Positions 1-5,470 of a stretch of 5,470 nucleotides of DNA are shown here, piece after piece. The notes under the pieces are model-generated. The model saw only the letters and a program-made list of their open reading frames with translations, had not been told where the DNA came from and did not search any database. Where the stretch lies: assembly GCA_007133055.1 (NCBI GenBank), contig SLNM01000350.1, positions 1 to 5,470 of the forward strand, given 5' to 3'. How positions within the stretch are numbered: position 1 is the first letter of the stretch; each line of letters opens with the position of its first letter. A program made the position numbers and the translations under genes. The DNA comes from Lentisphaeria bacterium. Lineage in GTDB: Bacteria; Verrucomicrobiota; Lentisphaeria; Oligosphaerales; PUNB01.

Positions 1-129
1 AACTACAGCTTGTTTTTTCCCCATTCTCTATTACCTGCCGTTTGACTGTACAACCATCAGATGTGAATCTCAAGAACATCGATTAATCTATTGTGCCCGC
101 TCCACAAATCAACCCCTTCTCTCGATTCG

Positions 130-157
130 TTGCAATATTTAGAAATGAAGATATAAT
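130..157 (+). promoter_or_regulatory. Sigma70-type promoter of the ketosynthase-ACP-symporter run
   Basis: TTGCAA at 130-135 and TATAAT at 152-157 are separated by 16 bases: a perfect -10 and a four-of-six -35 hexamer. The surroundings are AT-rich. Transcription would start near 163-166, giving an untranslated leader of about 70 nt before the start codon at 236. Because the intrinsic terminator at 181-211 lies inside this leader, transcripts may be attenuated. The call rests on hexamer match and position only. Confidence 0.65.
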
Positions 158-180
158 AAAATCCTTTCATATTCGGACAC

Positions 181-211
181 TGCCATCCGGCTAGGATGGG
201 CATTTTTTTTT
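181..211 (+). terminator. Intrinsic terminator or attenuator in the leader
   Basis: TGCCATCC (181-188) pairs with GGATGGGCA (194-202) with one bulged G and a 5-nt loop, and nine T residues follow directly (203-211). This is a canonical rho-independent terminator for + strand transcription. It lies downstream of the promoter at 130-157 and ends 24 nt before the start codon at 236. It may therefore be an attenuator of the operon, or the end of a transcript from further left. An alternative weak pairing of 187-192 with 218-223 (6 bp, one G-U) would break the hairpin but would also cover the GGGAG at 215-219. Confidence 0.8.
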
Positions 212-235
212 ACCGGGAGTCGGCAAATTACACGG

Positions 236-1495
236 ATGAATGGTTCTCTGCCATCAACAGCACGAATTGTTATCACCGGGGTAGGACTGACGGCACCGAA
301 CGGCGATGATCTTGCCACTTTCCGGCAAAATCTCCTGGCCGGAGTGTCGGGTATCGAGCCCTATAACATTCGTTACTTCGGCGACACCATCGCCGGCGTC
401 TGCCACTTCGATCCCACTGTCCACCAGAAGCGAAAGGATATTCGCAATGGCACTCGGGCAGGATCGATCGCCATCCATTGCGCCAACCAGGCCATTGCCG
501 ACAGCGGCCTGAACTGGCAGCGGTGCGACCGTTCCAGAGTGGGGGTGTATCTCGGCATCACCGAACACGGGAACGTGGAGACCGAAGCGGAAATTCACAA
601 CCTCAGGCAGTTTGACTACAACCTGCGCTACTGGTCCCACTTCCATAATCCCCGGACCGTCGCCAACAGCCCGGCCGGACAAGCAACCGTCAACCTGGGA
701 ATTACCGGCCCCCACTATACCATCGGCGGCGCCTGCGCAGCCGGCAATCTGGGAATTATTCAAGGCGTTCAGCAACTGCAACTGGGCGAAGTCGACCTCG
801 CCCTGGCAGGAGGGGTTTCCGAAAGCATACATACCTTCGGTATCTTCGCCGGATTCCAAAGCCAGAACGCCCTGGCCACCCATCCCGATCCCACCCGCGC
901 CAGCCGGCCGTTTGACCTCGACCGCAACGGCATTGTCATTGCCGAGGGCGGTGCCATATTCACCCTGGAACGACTGCACGACGCAGTCGACCGGGGCGCC
1001 CGCATCTACGGGGAAATTATTGGCTACGCCGCCAATTCCGACGCCACCGACTTTGTCCTCCCCAACCCACAGCGACAAGGCGAGTGCATTGCCGCCGCCC
1101 TGCGCCGGGCAAATCTGCGGCCAGACCAGATCGACCTGGTAAGCACCCATGCCACCGGCACTTCAGCAGGGGATATTCAGGAATGCGTGGCTCTGCGCCA
1201 GGCGTTCGGACAAACCGAGGAAAAATTCGAAACCTGCTTCAACAACTGCAAAAGCTTCATCGGCCATGCCATGGGCGCAGCCGGCGCCCTGGAACTGGCC
1301 GGCAACCTGCCTAGCTTTGACGATGGAATTATCCATCACACCATCAATCTTGACAAACCAGACCCCGAATGCGCGGTCCCCGGTATTATGGTCGCCGGCC
1401 GACCAATGGCCAAAACAAGAATCGAAACTATATTAAACAACTCATTCGGAATGCTCGGCATAAATTCGGTGCTCATAGTCGGAAAATATAAGTGA
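236..1495 (+). CDS. Beta-ketoacyl-ACP synthase (KAS II/FabF-like, divergent)
   Basis: A 419-residue condensing enzyme, close to the usual FabF length. It should catalyse decarboxylative Claisen condensation of an acyl chain with malonyl-ACP in the cytoplasm. The N-terminal RIVITGVGLTAPNG is typical. The active-site Cys is C167 in GGACAAGNLGI, the first His is H305 in STHATGTSAGD, and K339 and H344 lie in NNCKSFIGHAMGAAG, so the Cys-His-His set is complete. The C-terminal loop, usually NSFGFGGTN, reads NSFGMLGIN (402-410), so the gatekeeper Phe is Met. This suggests altered chain-length or substrate control. The ATG at 236 is the only reasonable start. A GGGAG at 215-219 is 16 nt away, rather far for a Shine-Dalgarno site. 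The stop overlaps a GTG in the next gene's frame, and an ACP gene follows, which supports a working KAS-ACP pair. The pathway (fatty acid variant, polyene or other lipid-like product) cannot be read from the window. Confidence 0.93.
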   Translation: MNGSLPSTARIVITGVGLTAPNGDDLATFRQNLLAGVSGIEPYNIRYFGDTIAGVCHFDPTVHQKRKDIRNGTRAGSIAIHCANQAIADSGLNWQRCDRSRVGVYLGITEHGNVETEAEIHNLRQFDYNLRYWSHFHNPRTVANSPAGQATVNLGITGPHYTIGGACAAGNLGIIQGVQQLQLGEVDLALAGGVSESIHTFGIFAGFQSQNALATHPDPTRASRPFDLDRNGIVIAEGGAIFTLERLHDAVDRGARIYGEIIGYAANSDATDFVLPNPQRQGECIAAALRRANLRPDQIDLVSTHATGTSAGDIQECVALRQAFGQTEEKFETCFNNCKSFIGHAMGAAGALELAGNLPSFDDGIIHHTINLDKPDPECAVPGIMVAGRPMAKTRIETILNNSFGMLGINSVLIVGKYK

Positions 1496-1500
1496 CTGCC

Positions 1501-1506
1501 AAGGAG
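1501..1506 (+). promoter_or_regulatory. Ribosome binding site of the ACP gene
   Basis: AAGGAG lies 12 nt before the ATG at 1519. It lies downstream of the in-frame GTG at 1492, so it favours 1519 as the true start and an 83-residue ACP. Confidence 0.7.
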
Positions 1507-1518
1507 AAACATACCATA

Positions 1519-1770
1519 ATGACCCGAGACCAGATCAAACAAGCGGTGATTGACATCATCTCCGACGTACTGCCGGACGATGATTGTTCGGAGCTGGAAC
1601 CGGACAAGAATTTGCGGGACCAGCTCGACCTGGACTCGATGGACTTCCTCGACATCGTCATGGAACTGCGCAAGCAATACGGCGTGGAAGTGCCCGAGGA
1701 AGACTATCCTAAACTGGCCACCCTGGCCGGCTGTATCGACTATCTGGAACCGAAACTGCAAGACCAATAG
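1519..1770 (+). CDS. Acyl carrier protein
   Basis: An 83-residue acidic protein with the four-helix ACP pattern. The phosphopantetheine attachment serine is S40 in LDLDSMDFLDIV, matching the DSL/DSM consensus. Helix II continues as DIVMELRKQYGVEVPEEDY, which is the usual partner-recognition surface. The protein would be activated by a phosphopantetheinyl transferase not seen here and would carry the acyl or malonyl chain for the adjacent ketosynthase. ATG 1519 is preferred over an in-frame GTG at 1492 because of the AAGGAG at 1501-1506 and because the family begins near the helix I residues DQIKQAVIDII. The gene starts 23 nt after the ketosynthase stop, and co-transcription is very likely. 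It differs from housekeeping AcpP (DSLDTVE), which suggests a dedicated carrier for a specialised pathway. Confidence 0.93.
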   Translation: MTRDQIKQAVIDIISDVLPDDDCSELEPDKNLRDQLDLDSMDFLDIVMELRKQYGVEVPEEDYPKLATLAGCIDYLEPKLQDQ

Positions 1771-1827
1771 TTTTCCAGCCACTTCCCCGGCTCTGATCAT
1801 CCGATTTTTCCCGGCGACAATGTAAAC

Positions 1828-1833
1828 AAGGAA
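1828..1833 (+). promoter_or_regulatory. Ribosome binding site of the symporter gene
   Basis: AAGGAA stands 7 nt before the ATG at 1841, a standard spacing, and supports this start. The 70-nt spacer after the ACP stop shows no terminator, so the three genes can form one transcript. Confidence 0.65.
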
Positions 1834-1840
1834 CAAAAAT

Positions 1841-3223
1841 ATGGTTTACAATGCCCTGGCGGTCGCGCTCGTCGCGGCCTTCGTAATCATGGGACTGTGG
1901 AGAAAACCATGGAAAATGGAGTTCTTCCTCGCCAACCGCCAAGCCGGAGCCGGACAGGTGGCCGGATCAATCCTGGCCACCTGCCTCGGCGGATCGGCCG
2001 TGTTCGGCATCGTCGAGAAGGCCAGCCAAATCGGATGGCCCGCATTCTGGTGGCTGGGCAGCGGCAGCCTCGGCCTGCTCCTTCTCGCCCTGACCTGGGC
2101 CAAGGCCATGCGACGACAACCCGCCAACATTACTCTGCCGCAATGGCTGGGAAGCGAGTACGGACTGCCGGCCCGTTGGCTGTCGGCAATGCTGATCACC
2201 GTCATGTGGATCGGTGTCATCTCCGCCCAGTGGGTGGCGGCCGGCGCTCTGCTGTCCTCGCTGCTGGGCTGGCCGTTTGCCTGGGGCGTTGCTCTGACGG
2301 CCGGAGCCGTCGTTATCTATACCGGGCTTGGCGGTCAGGCTTCAGTCTTGCGGACCGACCTGGCGCAGGCTCTGGTCATCGTTGCGGCGTTGTTCCTGGT
2401 ACTGCTGTCGCTGGTCTGGCAGACACCGACCGAAGAGCTGCGCGCCAGCCTGCCGCCCTGGCTTGGCATCGAGACCGCGGTCCCAGTTTCTCTGTCCTGG
2501 ACCGAATGGCTGGCTCTGACCACGGTGGTTGGCGGCATGTACTTGGTTGGCCCAGACCTCTACTCCCGAGTTATGACCGGGCGCAATCTCAGGGCGGCCC
2601 GATCCGGCGCTCTGACGGCGGCCGCCGTTCTCCTGCTCTGCGCCCTGCTGCTGACGCTGCTCGGCGTATTTGTCCTTCAAACCGGAGTGGTCGAAGCTCG
2701 CGGAGCCCAGGCGCTGCCTTGGCTGATCGAACGGCTTTTGCCTGCGGTTCCGGCTTTCCTGGTGCAAATCTTTCTGCTGGCGGCTCTGCTTTCCTCGGCC
2801 GACACCTGCCTGCTAACCGCCGCCTCGGTTCTGGAACTGGACTTGCTGGGCCGCAAACGCCCTGCCCGGGCGGCGGCGGCCCGAGCCCGGCTCCTTGTCG
2901 TGGCAATCGGCATTCTGTCGGCCACCGTGGCCATCGCCAGCCCTCGGATTATTGGCAACATTATGATGGCCTACGCCTTCTATGCAGGCGGTCTGCTGGT
3001 GCCCCTGCTGCTGCTGCGCTTCTCCTGGGCCGGCCGACTCGTCCGCAAGTGGGTATGGGTCGGCATGACAGGCGGCGGGCTCCTGCCTTTGATCGCCCTC
3101 CTGGCCGATTGGTTTGACGCACCCGATTTCATGCTTCGCCAGGCTCTGGCGGGGATGTCCGGAATGGTGGTATGCGCTCTTTTCTGCATCCTCGCCTGGC
3201 TGACCCGCCACCGGGTGAAATAA
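1841..3223 (+). CDS. Sodium:solute symporter family (SSS/SLC5) membrane transporter
   Basis: A 460-residue, highly hydrophobic protein with about 12 to 13 predicted membrane spans, at roughly 3-19, 38-58, 66-88, 114-140, 144-162, 172-193, 221-244, 254-280, 303-331, 349-367, 371-393, 404-422 and 433-455. The segment VVIYTGLGGQASVLRTDLAQ (158-176) matches the conserved SSS signature in which a Gly-Gly turn precedes a TD-hydrophobic-Q helix. LLAALLSSADTCLLTAASV (312-330) fits the family's sodium-site helix with paired serines (S318, S319) followed by AD. Such proteins import a solute (sugar, amino acid, carboxylate, proline, pantothenate and others) with sodium across the inner membrane. The substrate cannot be told from sequence. 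It follows a ketosynthase and an ACP on the same strand with no terminator between, so it may serve the same pathway, but this is inference. Length is slightly short of the usual 480-550. Confidence 0.85.
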   Translation: MVYNALAVALVAAFVIMGLWRKPWKMEFFLANRQAGAGQVAGSILATCLGGSAVFGIVEKASQIGWPAFWWLGSGSLGLLLLALTWAKAMRRQPANITLPQWLGSEYGLPARWLSAMLITVMWIGVISAQWVAAGALLSSLLGWPFAWGVALTAGAVVIYTGLGGQASVLRTDLAQALVIVAALFLVLLSLVWQTPTEELRASLPPWLGIETAVPVSLSWTEWLALTTVVGGMYLVGPDLYSRVMTGRNLRAARSGALTAAAVLLLCALLLTLLGVFVLQTGVVEARGAQALPWLIERLLPAVPAFLVQIFLLAALLSSADTCLLTAASVLELDLLGRKRPARAAAARARLLVVAIGILSATVAIASPRIIGNIMMAYAFYAGGLLVPLLLLRFSWAGRLVRKWVWVGMTGGGLLPLIALLADWFDAPDFMLRQALAGMSGMVVCALFCILAWLTRHRVK

Positions 3224-3549
3224 ACCAAGCAGAATAATTCAGGCGCTGACGAGAACGGCGACGATTACGATTCGAGCGCACTCCCTTGTCCATCGCGGGC
3301 ACTTGGAGACGGCGGGCCTCCGCCGTTAATCACCGTCCGAGGCCGGACGGCTCCAGGCCGCTCCATTTGCGATTTCAACTGCAACTCCCACGCCAACTGC
3401 GCAACGCATAATCTTCGTGCTTTTTGCGAGCTTTTGTTTTTTCCGTTTTTCTGAACTTAACCATACAAAGCTTCCAGGTATTCGACGGGTCGCCGGGATA
3501 TGGACGCTCCGACGAACAGCGTGAAAACTTCAGATGCCACCGCCGCAAA
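3224..3549. other. Convergent intergenic region without a convincing gene
   Basis: About 326 bp between the symporter stop and the stop of the opposite-strand gene. Frames crossing it are short and lack a recognisable family or ribosome binding site. It contains a foldable element (3302-3357), a T-rich stretch on the + strand (about 3421-3450), and part of a terminator-like hairpin at its right edge. On the - strand, the frame of the methyltransferase-glycosylase gene stays open for 30 codons past its TGA, to a TAA at 3457-3459. Confidence 0.6.
3302..3357. other. Compact three-stem foldable element
   Basis: An outer 7-bp stem (3302-3308 with 3351-3357, one G-U if read as + strand RNA) encloses two hairpins. 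One is 3309-3315 with 3320-3326 and the other 3333-3339 with 3344-3350, each a perfect 7-bp stem with a 4-nt loop. The two hairpins abut the outer stem with no unpaired bases on either side, and only 6 nt (TAATCA) separate them. No T-run follows, so it is not a standard intrinsic terminator. It may be a structured RNA, a REP-like palindromic DNA repeat, or a transcript 3' end stabiliser for the symporter mRNA. Only one copy is present in the window. Confidence 0.45.
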
Positions 3550-3565
3550 TCAGCGGCGGGGTTTT
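3540..3565 (+). terminator. Possible intrinsic terminator overlapping the opposite gene's stop codon
   Basis: CCGCCGC (3540-3546) pairs perfectly with GCGGCGG (3553-3559) around a 6-nt loop, followed by GG and TTTT (3562-3565) on the + strand. The loop contains the complement of the TGA that ends the - strand gene. The short T-run makes it a moderate candidate for ending rightward transcripts from the symporter operon before they run antisense into the opposite gene. In the - direction no T-run follows closely. Confidence 0.45.
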
Positions 3566-5448
3566 CCGCGCACGCTGGATTTGTCTTGTTGAGCATTTGC
3601 ATTTCGATACATATACCACGATCCAACGCTACGATAAGGTGTCCAGCGATTGGCTATGCGAAGCAAGGCATCTCGATCGCTGACTTCAACCCCATACACG
3701 ATAGCCATTGCTTTTCGCAATGCCAAGTCGTGGATCGGAAAGACATCTAACCTGCCGAGCCCGAAAAGGAGAAACATGTCAACGGTCCAATCCCCGATGC
3801 CGCATACCTCCGTCAGCGTCTCGCGCACCTCGACATCCGTCATTTGAGGAAGAGCCTTCAGGCGCAACTGCCGATTCTGGATTCGTTGAGCGAGATCACA
3901 AATATAGCCATACTTCCGCCCAGATACCCCAATCGACATGACGTCTTTTTTCGGGATACCGAGAAAGGCTTTTGCTGTTGGCCTTCGGCCCATGAACAGT
4001 TCTCTCAATCGGGAAGTGATCGTATCGGCAGCCTGCTTTGAGAGTTGTTGACCAATGATCGCGTCAACAAGAAAGTCAAAATCCGGCGCACGCGGCTTGA
4101 GAGTACATGGCCCAATGCTGTCGATAATGCTGGCAAGTCGTTTGTCTACACAATGCAGCCTGTAGCATGCGTCAGCCAGATTGCTGCCTTCGGAAGCGAA
4201 CATGGCCGCTTCCGTATACGATTGTGTCCATCTATCTACTGCACACTTCAGTTCAGACGGTGCATCGCATTCAACGTAAATAGAAAAGCCGGTGATGGGG
4301 CGGTGCTCGGTGTTAACCTGCGGTACTGGCGTATGGAATGTGTCTTCGAGCGAATCGAACAGAGAAGGTTGGGAATCAGTCTTCGATGGCTTTGAAACGT
4401 AGTCCCCCATAGGAAGCAACCCGCGCTCGAAACGCTCAAAGATCGTGGAAACTGCTTCAGGGCTTCGGTCTACGCCAATCCAATGCCGTTGGAGCTCATC
4501 TGCTACCGCTAAGGTCGTCCCCGACCCTGCGTAGCAGTCGAGAACTATATCCCCTGGATTCGAAGACGCTTGAATGATGCGCCGGAGTAGATCTGGATTC
4601 TTCTCCGTAGGATAGCCCGTAATTTTGATGTTCTGGTTGTGCGCATCTCGGAACTCTAGCCAAATGTCCTGAATGCCGACCCCCGGGTGTTCATCCAGAT
4701 AGACTTTTCGTCTTGGATTGCCATTCTTAGACCAGAAAATCTCACCCCGTGCATCCATCTCATCAAGGGTCTCCGGCGTGTACTGCCAATGCTTGCCCGG
4801 TGGCGGGAGTTTGCCTCGCCAAAGTCCACCTGTAGCCCCGTTGCGCTTTCCCGGGGCATGGACAGGAACCTTCATAAAACGTCGGCCAGTCTCCGGTTCT
4901 ACATAGTGGTATTCCTTTGCTCTCTGGTCGGTAAGCGGCTCAACAGGGCGATTCCATGTGTAACGTTCTGTCTTGGTGTAAAACAGAATGAAATCTGCAA
5001 CGTTACCATACGCCTTTCGCGTATAGTTCTTCGGGTTACATTTTTTTCTAACGATCATGTTTCGATAGTTCACTGCTCCGAACACCTCGTCCATAATGAG
5101 TTTCATCTGGAACACCATGTTCTCGTCGAGGTGCAGATATATCGACCCTGACGGAGAAAGAAGCTCGCTCAGCAGGATAAGGCGTTGTCTGAGCCCTTCC
5201 ACATATTCGGCTCCGCACAGGTCATCATCATAGGCCTTTGCTTGTTTACGAGAAAGAAATGTACCCTTGGTTGCGAACGGCGGATCAATATATACAAGGT
5301 TCACTCTGCCTCGGATCGTCGGGTCGCCGACCAACGCTTTCAATGCAGCAAGATTGTCGCCACAAAACAAACGGTTCAGCGAGTTACCCTTTCGGATAAC
5401 CTGGAATGTTGTATGGGCGGGTTGGGCAAGTATCTGCACCCGCGTCAT
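3550..5448 (-). CDS. Fusion of beta-class DNA amino-methyltransferase and AlkA-type HhH-GPD DNA glycosylase
   Basis: A 632-residue two-enzyme protein. Residues 1-348 form a type III Mod-like methyltransferase: NRLFCGDNLAAL, catalytic VNLVYIDPPF (D55-F58, motif IV), a putative target-recognition region (about 130-270), motif X near GYPTEKNPDLLRRI (278-291) and the SAM-binding DCYAGSGTT (304-312, motif I). The IV-before-I order marks the beta class. DPPF favours N6-adenine as target, but N4-cytosine is not excluded. A polar linker (349-385) contains QPSLF (360-364), resembling a sliding-clamp binding motif. Residues about 385-615 form a glycosylase: FLVDAIIGQQLS (459-470), the HhH VCGIGDWTVDMF (548-559), presumed catalytic D574 in FPIHDLALRKAM, and the AlkA/Mag-like WTPYRSVGSWYMYR (602-615). 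W554 occupies the place of the lyase Lys of Nth, and no C-terminal Fe-S cysteines are seen, so it should be a monofunctional glycosylase leaving an abasic site. No restriction subunit is adjacent in the window. Lower GC than the left block suggests acquisition by transfer. The start is uncertain: no good Shine-Dalgarno is visible and the frame stays open to the window edge. Confidence 0.9.
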   Translation of the reverse strand: MTRVQILAQPAHTTFQVIRKGNSLNRLFCGDNLAALKALVGDPTIRGRVNLVYIDPPFATKGTFLSRKQAKAYDDDLCGAEYVEGLRQRLILLSELLSPSGSIYLHLDENMVFQMKLIMDEVFGAVNYRNMIVRKKCNPKNYTRKAYGNVADFILFYTKTERYTWNRPVEPLTDQRAKEYHYVEPETGRRFMKVPVHAPGKRNGATGGLWRGKLPPPGKHWQYTPETLDEMDARGEIFWSKNGNPRRKVYLDEHPGVGIQDIWLEFRDAHNQNIKITGYPTEKNPDLLRRIIQASSNPGDIVLDCYAGSGTTLAVADELQRHWIGVDRSPEAVSTIFERFERGLLPMGDYVSKPSKTDSQPSLFDSLEDTFHTPVPQVNTEHRPITGFSIYVECDAPSELKCAVDRWTQSYTEAAMFASEGSNLADACYRLHCVDKRLASIIDSIGPCTLKPRAPDFDFLVDAIIGQQLSKQAADTITSRLRELFMGRRPTAKAFLGIPKKDVMSIGVSGRKYGYICDLAQRIQNRQLRLKALPQMTDVEVRETLTEVCGIGDWTVDMFLLFGLGRLDVFPIHDLALRKAMAIVYGVEVSDRDALLRIANRWTPYRSVGSWYMYRNANAQQDKSSVRGKPRR

Positions 5449-5470
5449 TTTGCCGGAATATGCCAGCGCA
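5449..5470 (-). other. Upstream edge of the fusion gene, cut by the window
   Basis: Only 22 nt precede the chosen ATG on the - strand. They show no clear Shine-Dalgarno site and no in-frame stop, so the true start or an upstream overlapping gene may lie outside. No ATG, GTG or TTG occurs in frame within these bases. Confidence 0.5.

Follow-up and report, generated by a model that had tools for sequence, protein, structure and literature searches.

Organization of the locus and of the fusion gene

The stretch of DNA analyzed here, called the window throughout, comprises positions 1-5470 (5,470 nucleotides) of a single contig, SLNM01000350.1, from a Lentisphaeria bacterium whose parent assembly spans 2.03 Mb and is 68% complete. 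Its minus strand carries an open frame (3550-5448) in which a DNA amino-methyltransferase is joined to an AlkA/Mag-type HhH-GPD DNA glycosylase (Table 1). From the comparisons given below, the most likely role of the fusion protein is that of modification subunit in a BstEII-type type II restriction-modification (R-M) system; what appears to be new is a type II methylase with a putative built-in editing or repair domain, in a join that recurs across bacterial groups. The original prediction, which gave no strand, described the frame as an uninterrupted one of 632 residues; it is indeed uninterrupted but does not represent the whole protein, as it is still open up to the contig end at 5469 and is cut at its 5' side by the contig edge. 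Full-length relatives have ~640-680 residues, and some (e.g., P0001) carry 24 extra residues N-terminal to the window's ATG, starting MATG(V/I)P; seven of these 24 upstream positions are still readable in frame in the window. The true start and the upstream genes thus lie out of view.

Table 1. Features of the fusion gene in the window, with conservation among 114 fusions
Feature	Residues	Positions	Strand	Remarks
Methylase-glycosylase fusion gene		3550..5470	-	open frame; 5' end past contig edge
Beta-class N6/N4 amino-methyltransferase domain	49-337	4438..5304	-	Pfam N6_N4_Mtase, E 1.8e-46
DPPF catalytic motif	55-58	5275..5286	-	D55 113/114; P56 and P57 114/114; F58 113/114
DCYAGSGTT S-adenosylmethionine (SAM)-binding motif	304-312	4513..4539	-	D304, G308, S309, G310, T311 114/114; T312 113/114
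Variable linker	345-423	4180..4416	-	low conservation, mostly low pLDDT (model confidence)
AlkA/Mag-type HhH-GPD glycosylase domain	424-621	3586..4179	-
QQ of conserved QQLS stretch	467-468	4045..4050	-	each 112/114
Helix-hairpin-helix (HhH) VCGIGDWTVDMF	548-559	3772..3807	-	acidic D553 fusion-typical
Catalytic Asp574	574	3727..3729	-	114/114 fusions, 107/107 stand-alone glycosylases

Both Pfam domains score above the curated cut-off (HhH-GPD over residues 461-599, E 5.6e-11), and the motifs that had been read from the frame originally, namely DPPF, DCYAGSGTT, GQQ (residues 466-468), the HhH and D574, are all in place. In the methylase half DPPF lies N-terminal to GSGTT, the motif order of a beta-class amino-methyltransferase. 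DPPF favors N6-adenine, and the structural matches of the predicted model, parts of which are poor, include EcoP15I Mod, MboIIA and CcrM and cover both N6-adenine and N4-cytosine enzymes. A type III Mod-like label had been proposed for this half; instead, a defence-library profile search gives 433 bits to a type II methyltransferase model and 152 bits to the best type III model, and in trees of 143 and 56 methylases the window methylase falls among those of BstEII-like systems.

By eye, the linker that follows partly resembles the tail with which some methylase-only relatives end. For the C-terminal part the earlier claim of a full HhH-GPD glycosylase holds: in addition to the Pfam match, a glycosylase fold is confidently predicted that matches HhH-GPD enzymes, and the fold, the hairpin and the catalytic Asp are those by which AlkA/Mag members are recognized. 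The best solved folds are tied between Deinococcus AlkA2 (2yg8) and S. pombe Mag2. AlkA2 and Bacillus halodurans 2h56, which are top or near-top fold and sequence matches, share the catalytic Asp, the hairpin and the QQLS stretch with the fused domain; unlike it they are separate proteins, and it differs from them at the position preceding the catalytic Asp, which is mostly His, and in an acidic hairpin residue. Mag1 and Mag2 of S. pombe likewise have no methylase joined to them, and Mag2 has K at the aligned position of Q468. Within the fusions the G of GQQ is variable (55 G, 54 S among 114), hairpin residue 553 is D in 103/114 (R in 58/107 and P in 22/107 stand-alone glycosylases), and the fusion-typical His573, just before the catalytic Asp, occurs in 93/114.

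Conservation and distribution of the fusion

Homologue statistics refer to the best 120 of 7415 matches, and residue counts (n = 114) to the window and the 113 relatives of at least 600 residues. Both Pfam domains are present in 116 of these best 120 homologues and 113 of the 120 reach that length; the recurrence of the pair, with conserved motifs, shows that the fusion is real and rules out an assembly error or a chance join. The same domain order thus exists in several bacterial groups, as had been proposed for checking: source names include Candidatus Nitrospira nitrosa, Desulfomonile and Syntrophaceae, and fusion loci were obtained from Nitrospira, Desulfobacterales and Entotheonella. In 24 relatives identity to the window is 55-89%. 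The mean share of the majority residue falls from 0.84 over the methylase (26-350) to 0.45 over the linker (351-424) and rises again to 0.68 over the glycosylase part (425-620), where W554 (114/114) is as invariant as D574.

The distribution is patchy, with intact fusions in 2/387 genomes of the window's phylum and in 2/198 and 2/297 genomes of two other phyla (counts among sampled genomes that include the seed genomes and depend on the score limits applied). Genomes assigned to the window's class or phylum have methylase segments identical to those of named Victivallaceae and Opitutia loci (L100 and L052; L094 and L015), which probably places the window's genome in the Verrucomicrobiota/Lentisphaerota group. 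Plasmid and phage collections gave no record that covers 80% of the query at a single place. A long frame in G604 was considered as a second fusion type and rejected, since by eye its glycosylase looks stand-alone and the rest reads as low-complexity sequence, probably out of frame. A literature search of titles, abstract openings and some passages yielded no recognizable account of a methylase-glycosylase fusion, in agreement with the original prediction, which knew of no described system of this kind.

A BstEII-like endonuclease gene adjoins the fusion in other loci

The gene directly upstream of the fusion encodes a BstEII-like endonuclease (R) in 6/6 other intact loci fetched. R has ~292 residues, is whole in L006, L106 (G359), L179 (G486) and L180 (G683), and matches BstEII among solved structures with E 9e-87 in an alignment that spans residues 7-290 of 292; Pfam, PADLOC and NCBIfam models gave no match to it at the limits used. 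In L004 (8924-9807) and L005 (9004-9887) R is split by small frameshifts that lie close together and are different in each, next to an intact fusion gene; these reflect either real decay or assembly error. R was not found elsewhere in the window's genome, which is 68% complete, and the contig ends where R would adjoin the fusion.

A further comparison used database entries. Among the best 120 fusion entries, 25 match the exact longest-contig size of an R entry, compared with a mean of 0.9 and a maximum of 4 for shifted sizes (92 of 120 R entries were used and the value for P0211 is wrong; P0017 and P0033 match one R, which makes one or more of the 25 a chance match). Two Syntrophaceae entries bear the neighboring tags HPY65_18160 (R) and HPY65_18165 (fusion), and one fusion is named by its source 'Modification methylase EcaI (modular protein)'. 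BstEII and EcaI recognize GGTNACC; R in the fusion loci is homologous to BstEII over its full length, whereas the fusion methylase differs from these systems in its extra C-terminal HhH-GPD domain of ~200 residues, and its own site would be GGTNACC-like.

Listing the neighbors, as originally suggested, therefore revealed R and no type III partner. No Res helicase-nuclease lies upstream of the fusion in these six loci, and the open frames adjoining it fall far short of Res size in L004, L005, L006 and L092; on this and the profile scores a type III Mod with Res is rejected. No conserved gene other than R and the fusion was seen in the window and the six loci. When the open frames of nine loci were compared all-against-all, the matches consisted of R, the fusion and frames overlying those two genes, plus a stand-alone glycosylase in L006, a weak match (25%) between acyl-activating genes of L006 and L108, and a match of 72 residues between L107 and L108; no third conserved gene, such as an AP (abasic-site) endonuclease or a controller, emerged. 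Surroundings of the two-gene module differ among the loci compared. The stand-alone gene of L006 (3915-4541, Entotheonella) is a second AlkA-like glycosylase, 41-43% identical, located ~4.5 kb upstream of the module, and L107 (8007-10044, G191) holds a decayed module remnant, consisting of the C-terminal part of R and two methylase pieces with no glycosylase match.

The presence of R bears on a proposal of the original prediction, that the glycosylase is the restriction arm and makes abasic sites in foreign DNA; in another form of this reading it would be a second defence against phages that resist the BstEII-like nuclease through modified bases. In the PabI type the glycosylase itself is the restriction enzyme; here a BstEII-like nuclease gene lies beside an HhH-GPD domain fused to the methylase, and a role as sole restriction enzyme is ruled out by that separate gene in 6/6 loci. 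With an endonuclease already in the system, its gene whole in 4/6 loci, the glycosylase is unlikely as a primary restriction arm; carried by the methylase subunit, a domain that attacks bases would also hit self DNA, and the fold is of the alkyl-base repair type. On the other side, the glycosylase travels with an R-M system, and in L004 and L005 R is broken while the fusion gene is intact. Base-excising restriction enzymes are described (PMC12707154), and the arrangement resembles the PabI type in placing a base-excising enzyme within an R-M system. Taken together, a restriction role in either form is quite improbable.

Origin, loss and release of the glycosylase domain

Methylase-only BstEII-type systems exist: the closest methylase-only relatives have a BstEII-like R at 12/16 genome loci (L007-L022), in L022 as pieces only; L007 and L021 show no R, and L016 and L017 start almost at the methylase. 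Further methylase-only loci come from viruses, where R, convergent to the methylase, is present in 6/7 (two with identical methylases), and from two plasmids with the same arrangement. This second BstEII-like layout was observed in L010, L012, L013, L109, L110 and L085-L090, and its R is closer to a Geobacillus or Acinetobacter plasmid type.

A 56-methylase tree (L015 and L086 omitted as copies of L094 and L085) unites the 29 sampled fusions and the methylase of L084 in one clade, with bootstrap 100 and a Shimodaira-Hasegawa-like approximate likelihood-ratio test (SH-aLRT) value of 94. L084 is nested inside the fusions, and a clade of fusions only is rejected (approximately unbiased test, p 0.025). 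The L084 methylase (9914-11287) lies on a 120-kb virus contig with neither glycosylase nor R within the 21 kb examined; it may serve the phage as protection from this R-M system. A single clade with L084 nested in it is most simply explained if the two domains were joined once and the glycosylase was lost once, in the virus.

The domain also occurs in the opposite state, apart from its methylase. In a quick tree of 88 glycosylase domains, in which every third fusion was used and the stand-alone label includes probable contig-cut fusion pieces (P0246, P0247, P0248, P0250, P0251, P0252), the fused domains group apart from the bulk of stand-alone enzymes (SH-aLRT 98). Six stand-alone rows are nested within the fused group (SH-aLRT 100), namely P0241-P0245 and a G252 gene that is practically P0241. 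P0244 comes from a 968-base contig, and the neighborhood evidence for released copies is that of G252, where a 216-residue glycosylase has no methylase match within the 12 kb read and evolves, relative to the window, with a nonsynonymous to synonymous rate ratio (dN/dS) of ~0.20 at a synonymous divergence (dS) of 1.1. The released copies keep Asp574, so that, judged from these trees, the glycosylase domain can outlive its methylase; K471, D553 and V556, typical of fusions, differ in five of them, which suggests that being fused matters for DNA contact. The nearest kin of the two halves of the window protein also differ (P0247 for the glycosylase; P0001 and P0005 for the methylase), and the glycosylase parts of the window and G359 differ at a dS of 0.8, their methylase parts at 1.9; recombination between the halves is possible.

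This history weighs on another of the original models, in which the glycosylase fold merely steers the methylase to DNA; such a non-catalytic or DNA-gripping module would help it to bind, scan or release DNA. That model is weakened by methylase-only relatives that have R, by the virus-borne methylase that is nested in the fusion clade and has no glycosylase domain, by released glycosylases that persist alone, and by the near-invariance of Asp574, W554, Q467 and Q468. It is considered unlikely.

Proposed function of the fused glycosylase

The favored reading, one of the models in the original prediction and a serious one after this analysis, is that the glycosylase domain clears ring-methylated bases, or bases aberrantly alkylated in some other way, from the methylase's sites or their vicinity; it is given a probability of about 0.47. 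As the modification methylase of a BstEII-type system the protein would act at GGTNACC-like sites, and its product would be N6-methyladenine. Holding SAM and flipped bases, it would sometimes alkylate ring nitrogens, by error or through nearby SAM; this damage step is drawn by analogy from cytosine methylases. The substrates would be 1-methyladenine, 3-methyladenine, 3-methylcytosine or 7-methylguanine, which the fused glycosylase, if active, would excise, and the resulting abasic site would pass to ordinary base-excision repair. Deinococcus AlkA2, one of the two best folds, reportedly excises 1-methyladenine and 3-methylcytosine. The other, Mag2, is not known to be catalytically active, which weighs against the favored reading and warns against assuming excision of alkylated bases. 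A stricter version, a self-proofreading methyltransferase whose editing domain would excise ring-methylated bases made in error at its own sites, is proposed tentatively; it would resemble the editing domains of polymerases and tRNA synthetases in removing its own errors.

Repair genes beside cytosine R-M systems, such as those for the Mig.Mth glycosylase and the Vsr nuclease, act on mismatches from 5-methylcytosine deamination. The likeness is that repair of methylation-borne damage is encoded with the methylase; the difference is that these are separate genes dealing with deamination, whereas here an alkyl-type glycosylase is fused to a DPPF amino-methylase.

The nearest rival is that the domain is general alkylation-repair cargo, acting genome-wide, with the fusion merely tying a repair gene to a mobile R-M system. 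Host repair genes were compared between the seven genomes with intact fusions and 15 methylase-only genomes (G191 and G252, which have no intact fusion, are omitted; neither has AlkB). AlkB (PF13532) occurs in 1/7 and 6/15 (p 0.35), a stand-alone glycosylase of the same group (E 1e-10) in 2/7 and 8/15 (p 0.38), and neither of them in 5/7 and 4/15 (p 0.074). The direction of these counts fits on-board repair, with no comparison significant, and the window's genome is incomplete; absence of AlkB or of a stand-alone glycosylase was rejected as proof. Genome-wide repair would agree with the fused copy being the only member of its glycosylase group found at that threshold in 5/7 hosts, with the release of the domain as a separate gene in which the catalytic Asp persists, and with the differing surroundings of the module. 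It is at odds with domains that stay joined across relatives as divergent as the 24 noted above and with the changes at K471, D553 and V556 in the five released copies, and is regarded as somewhat unlikely.

Removal of the methylase's correct product, as active demethylation or a tuning of methylation level, is barely plausible: stripping a protective mark with R present would be self-destructive, and the best-ranked folds belong to enzymes of alkyl-base repair or to relatives of these. What can be said for it is that the fusion-typical H573 beside the catalytic Asp could mark a changed pocket, and that the plant ROS1/DME enzymes are HhH-GPD glycosylases which remove 5-methylcytosine.

Bacterial DNA methylases are rarely regarded as mutagens. 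Self-proofreading, if true, would mean that adenine-methylase errors in bacteria are costly enough to select on-board repair. A recurrent methylase with a base-excision domain would make methylation damage and its cost to R-M systems directly testable, and methylase-only, glycosylase-only and fused forms offer a natural comparison set in one family.

Neighboring genes in the window

On the plus strand, positions 236-3223 carry genes for a ketoacyl synthase, an acyl carrier protein and a sodium:solute symporter. Their guanine-plus-cytosine contents are 58.0, 53.4 and 64.6%, respectively, and that of the fusion gene is 51.4%; this lower value hints that the fusion gene came from elsewhere.
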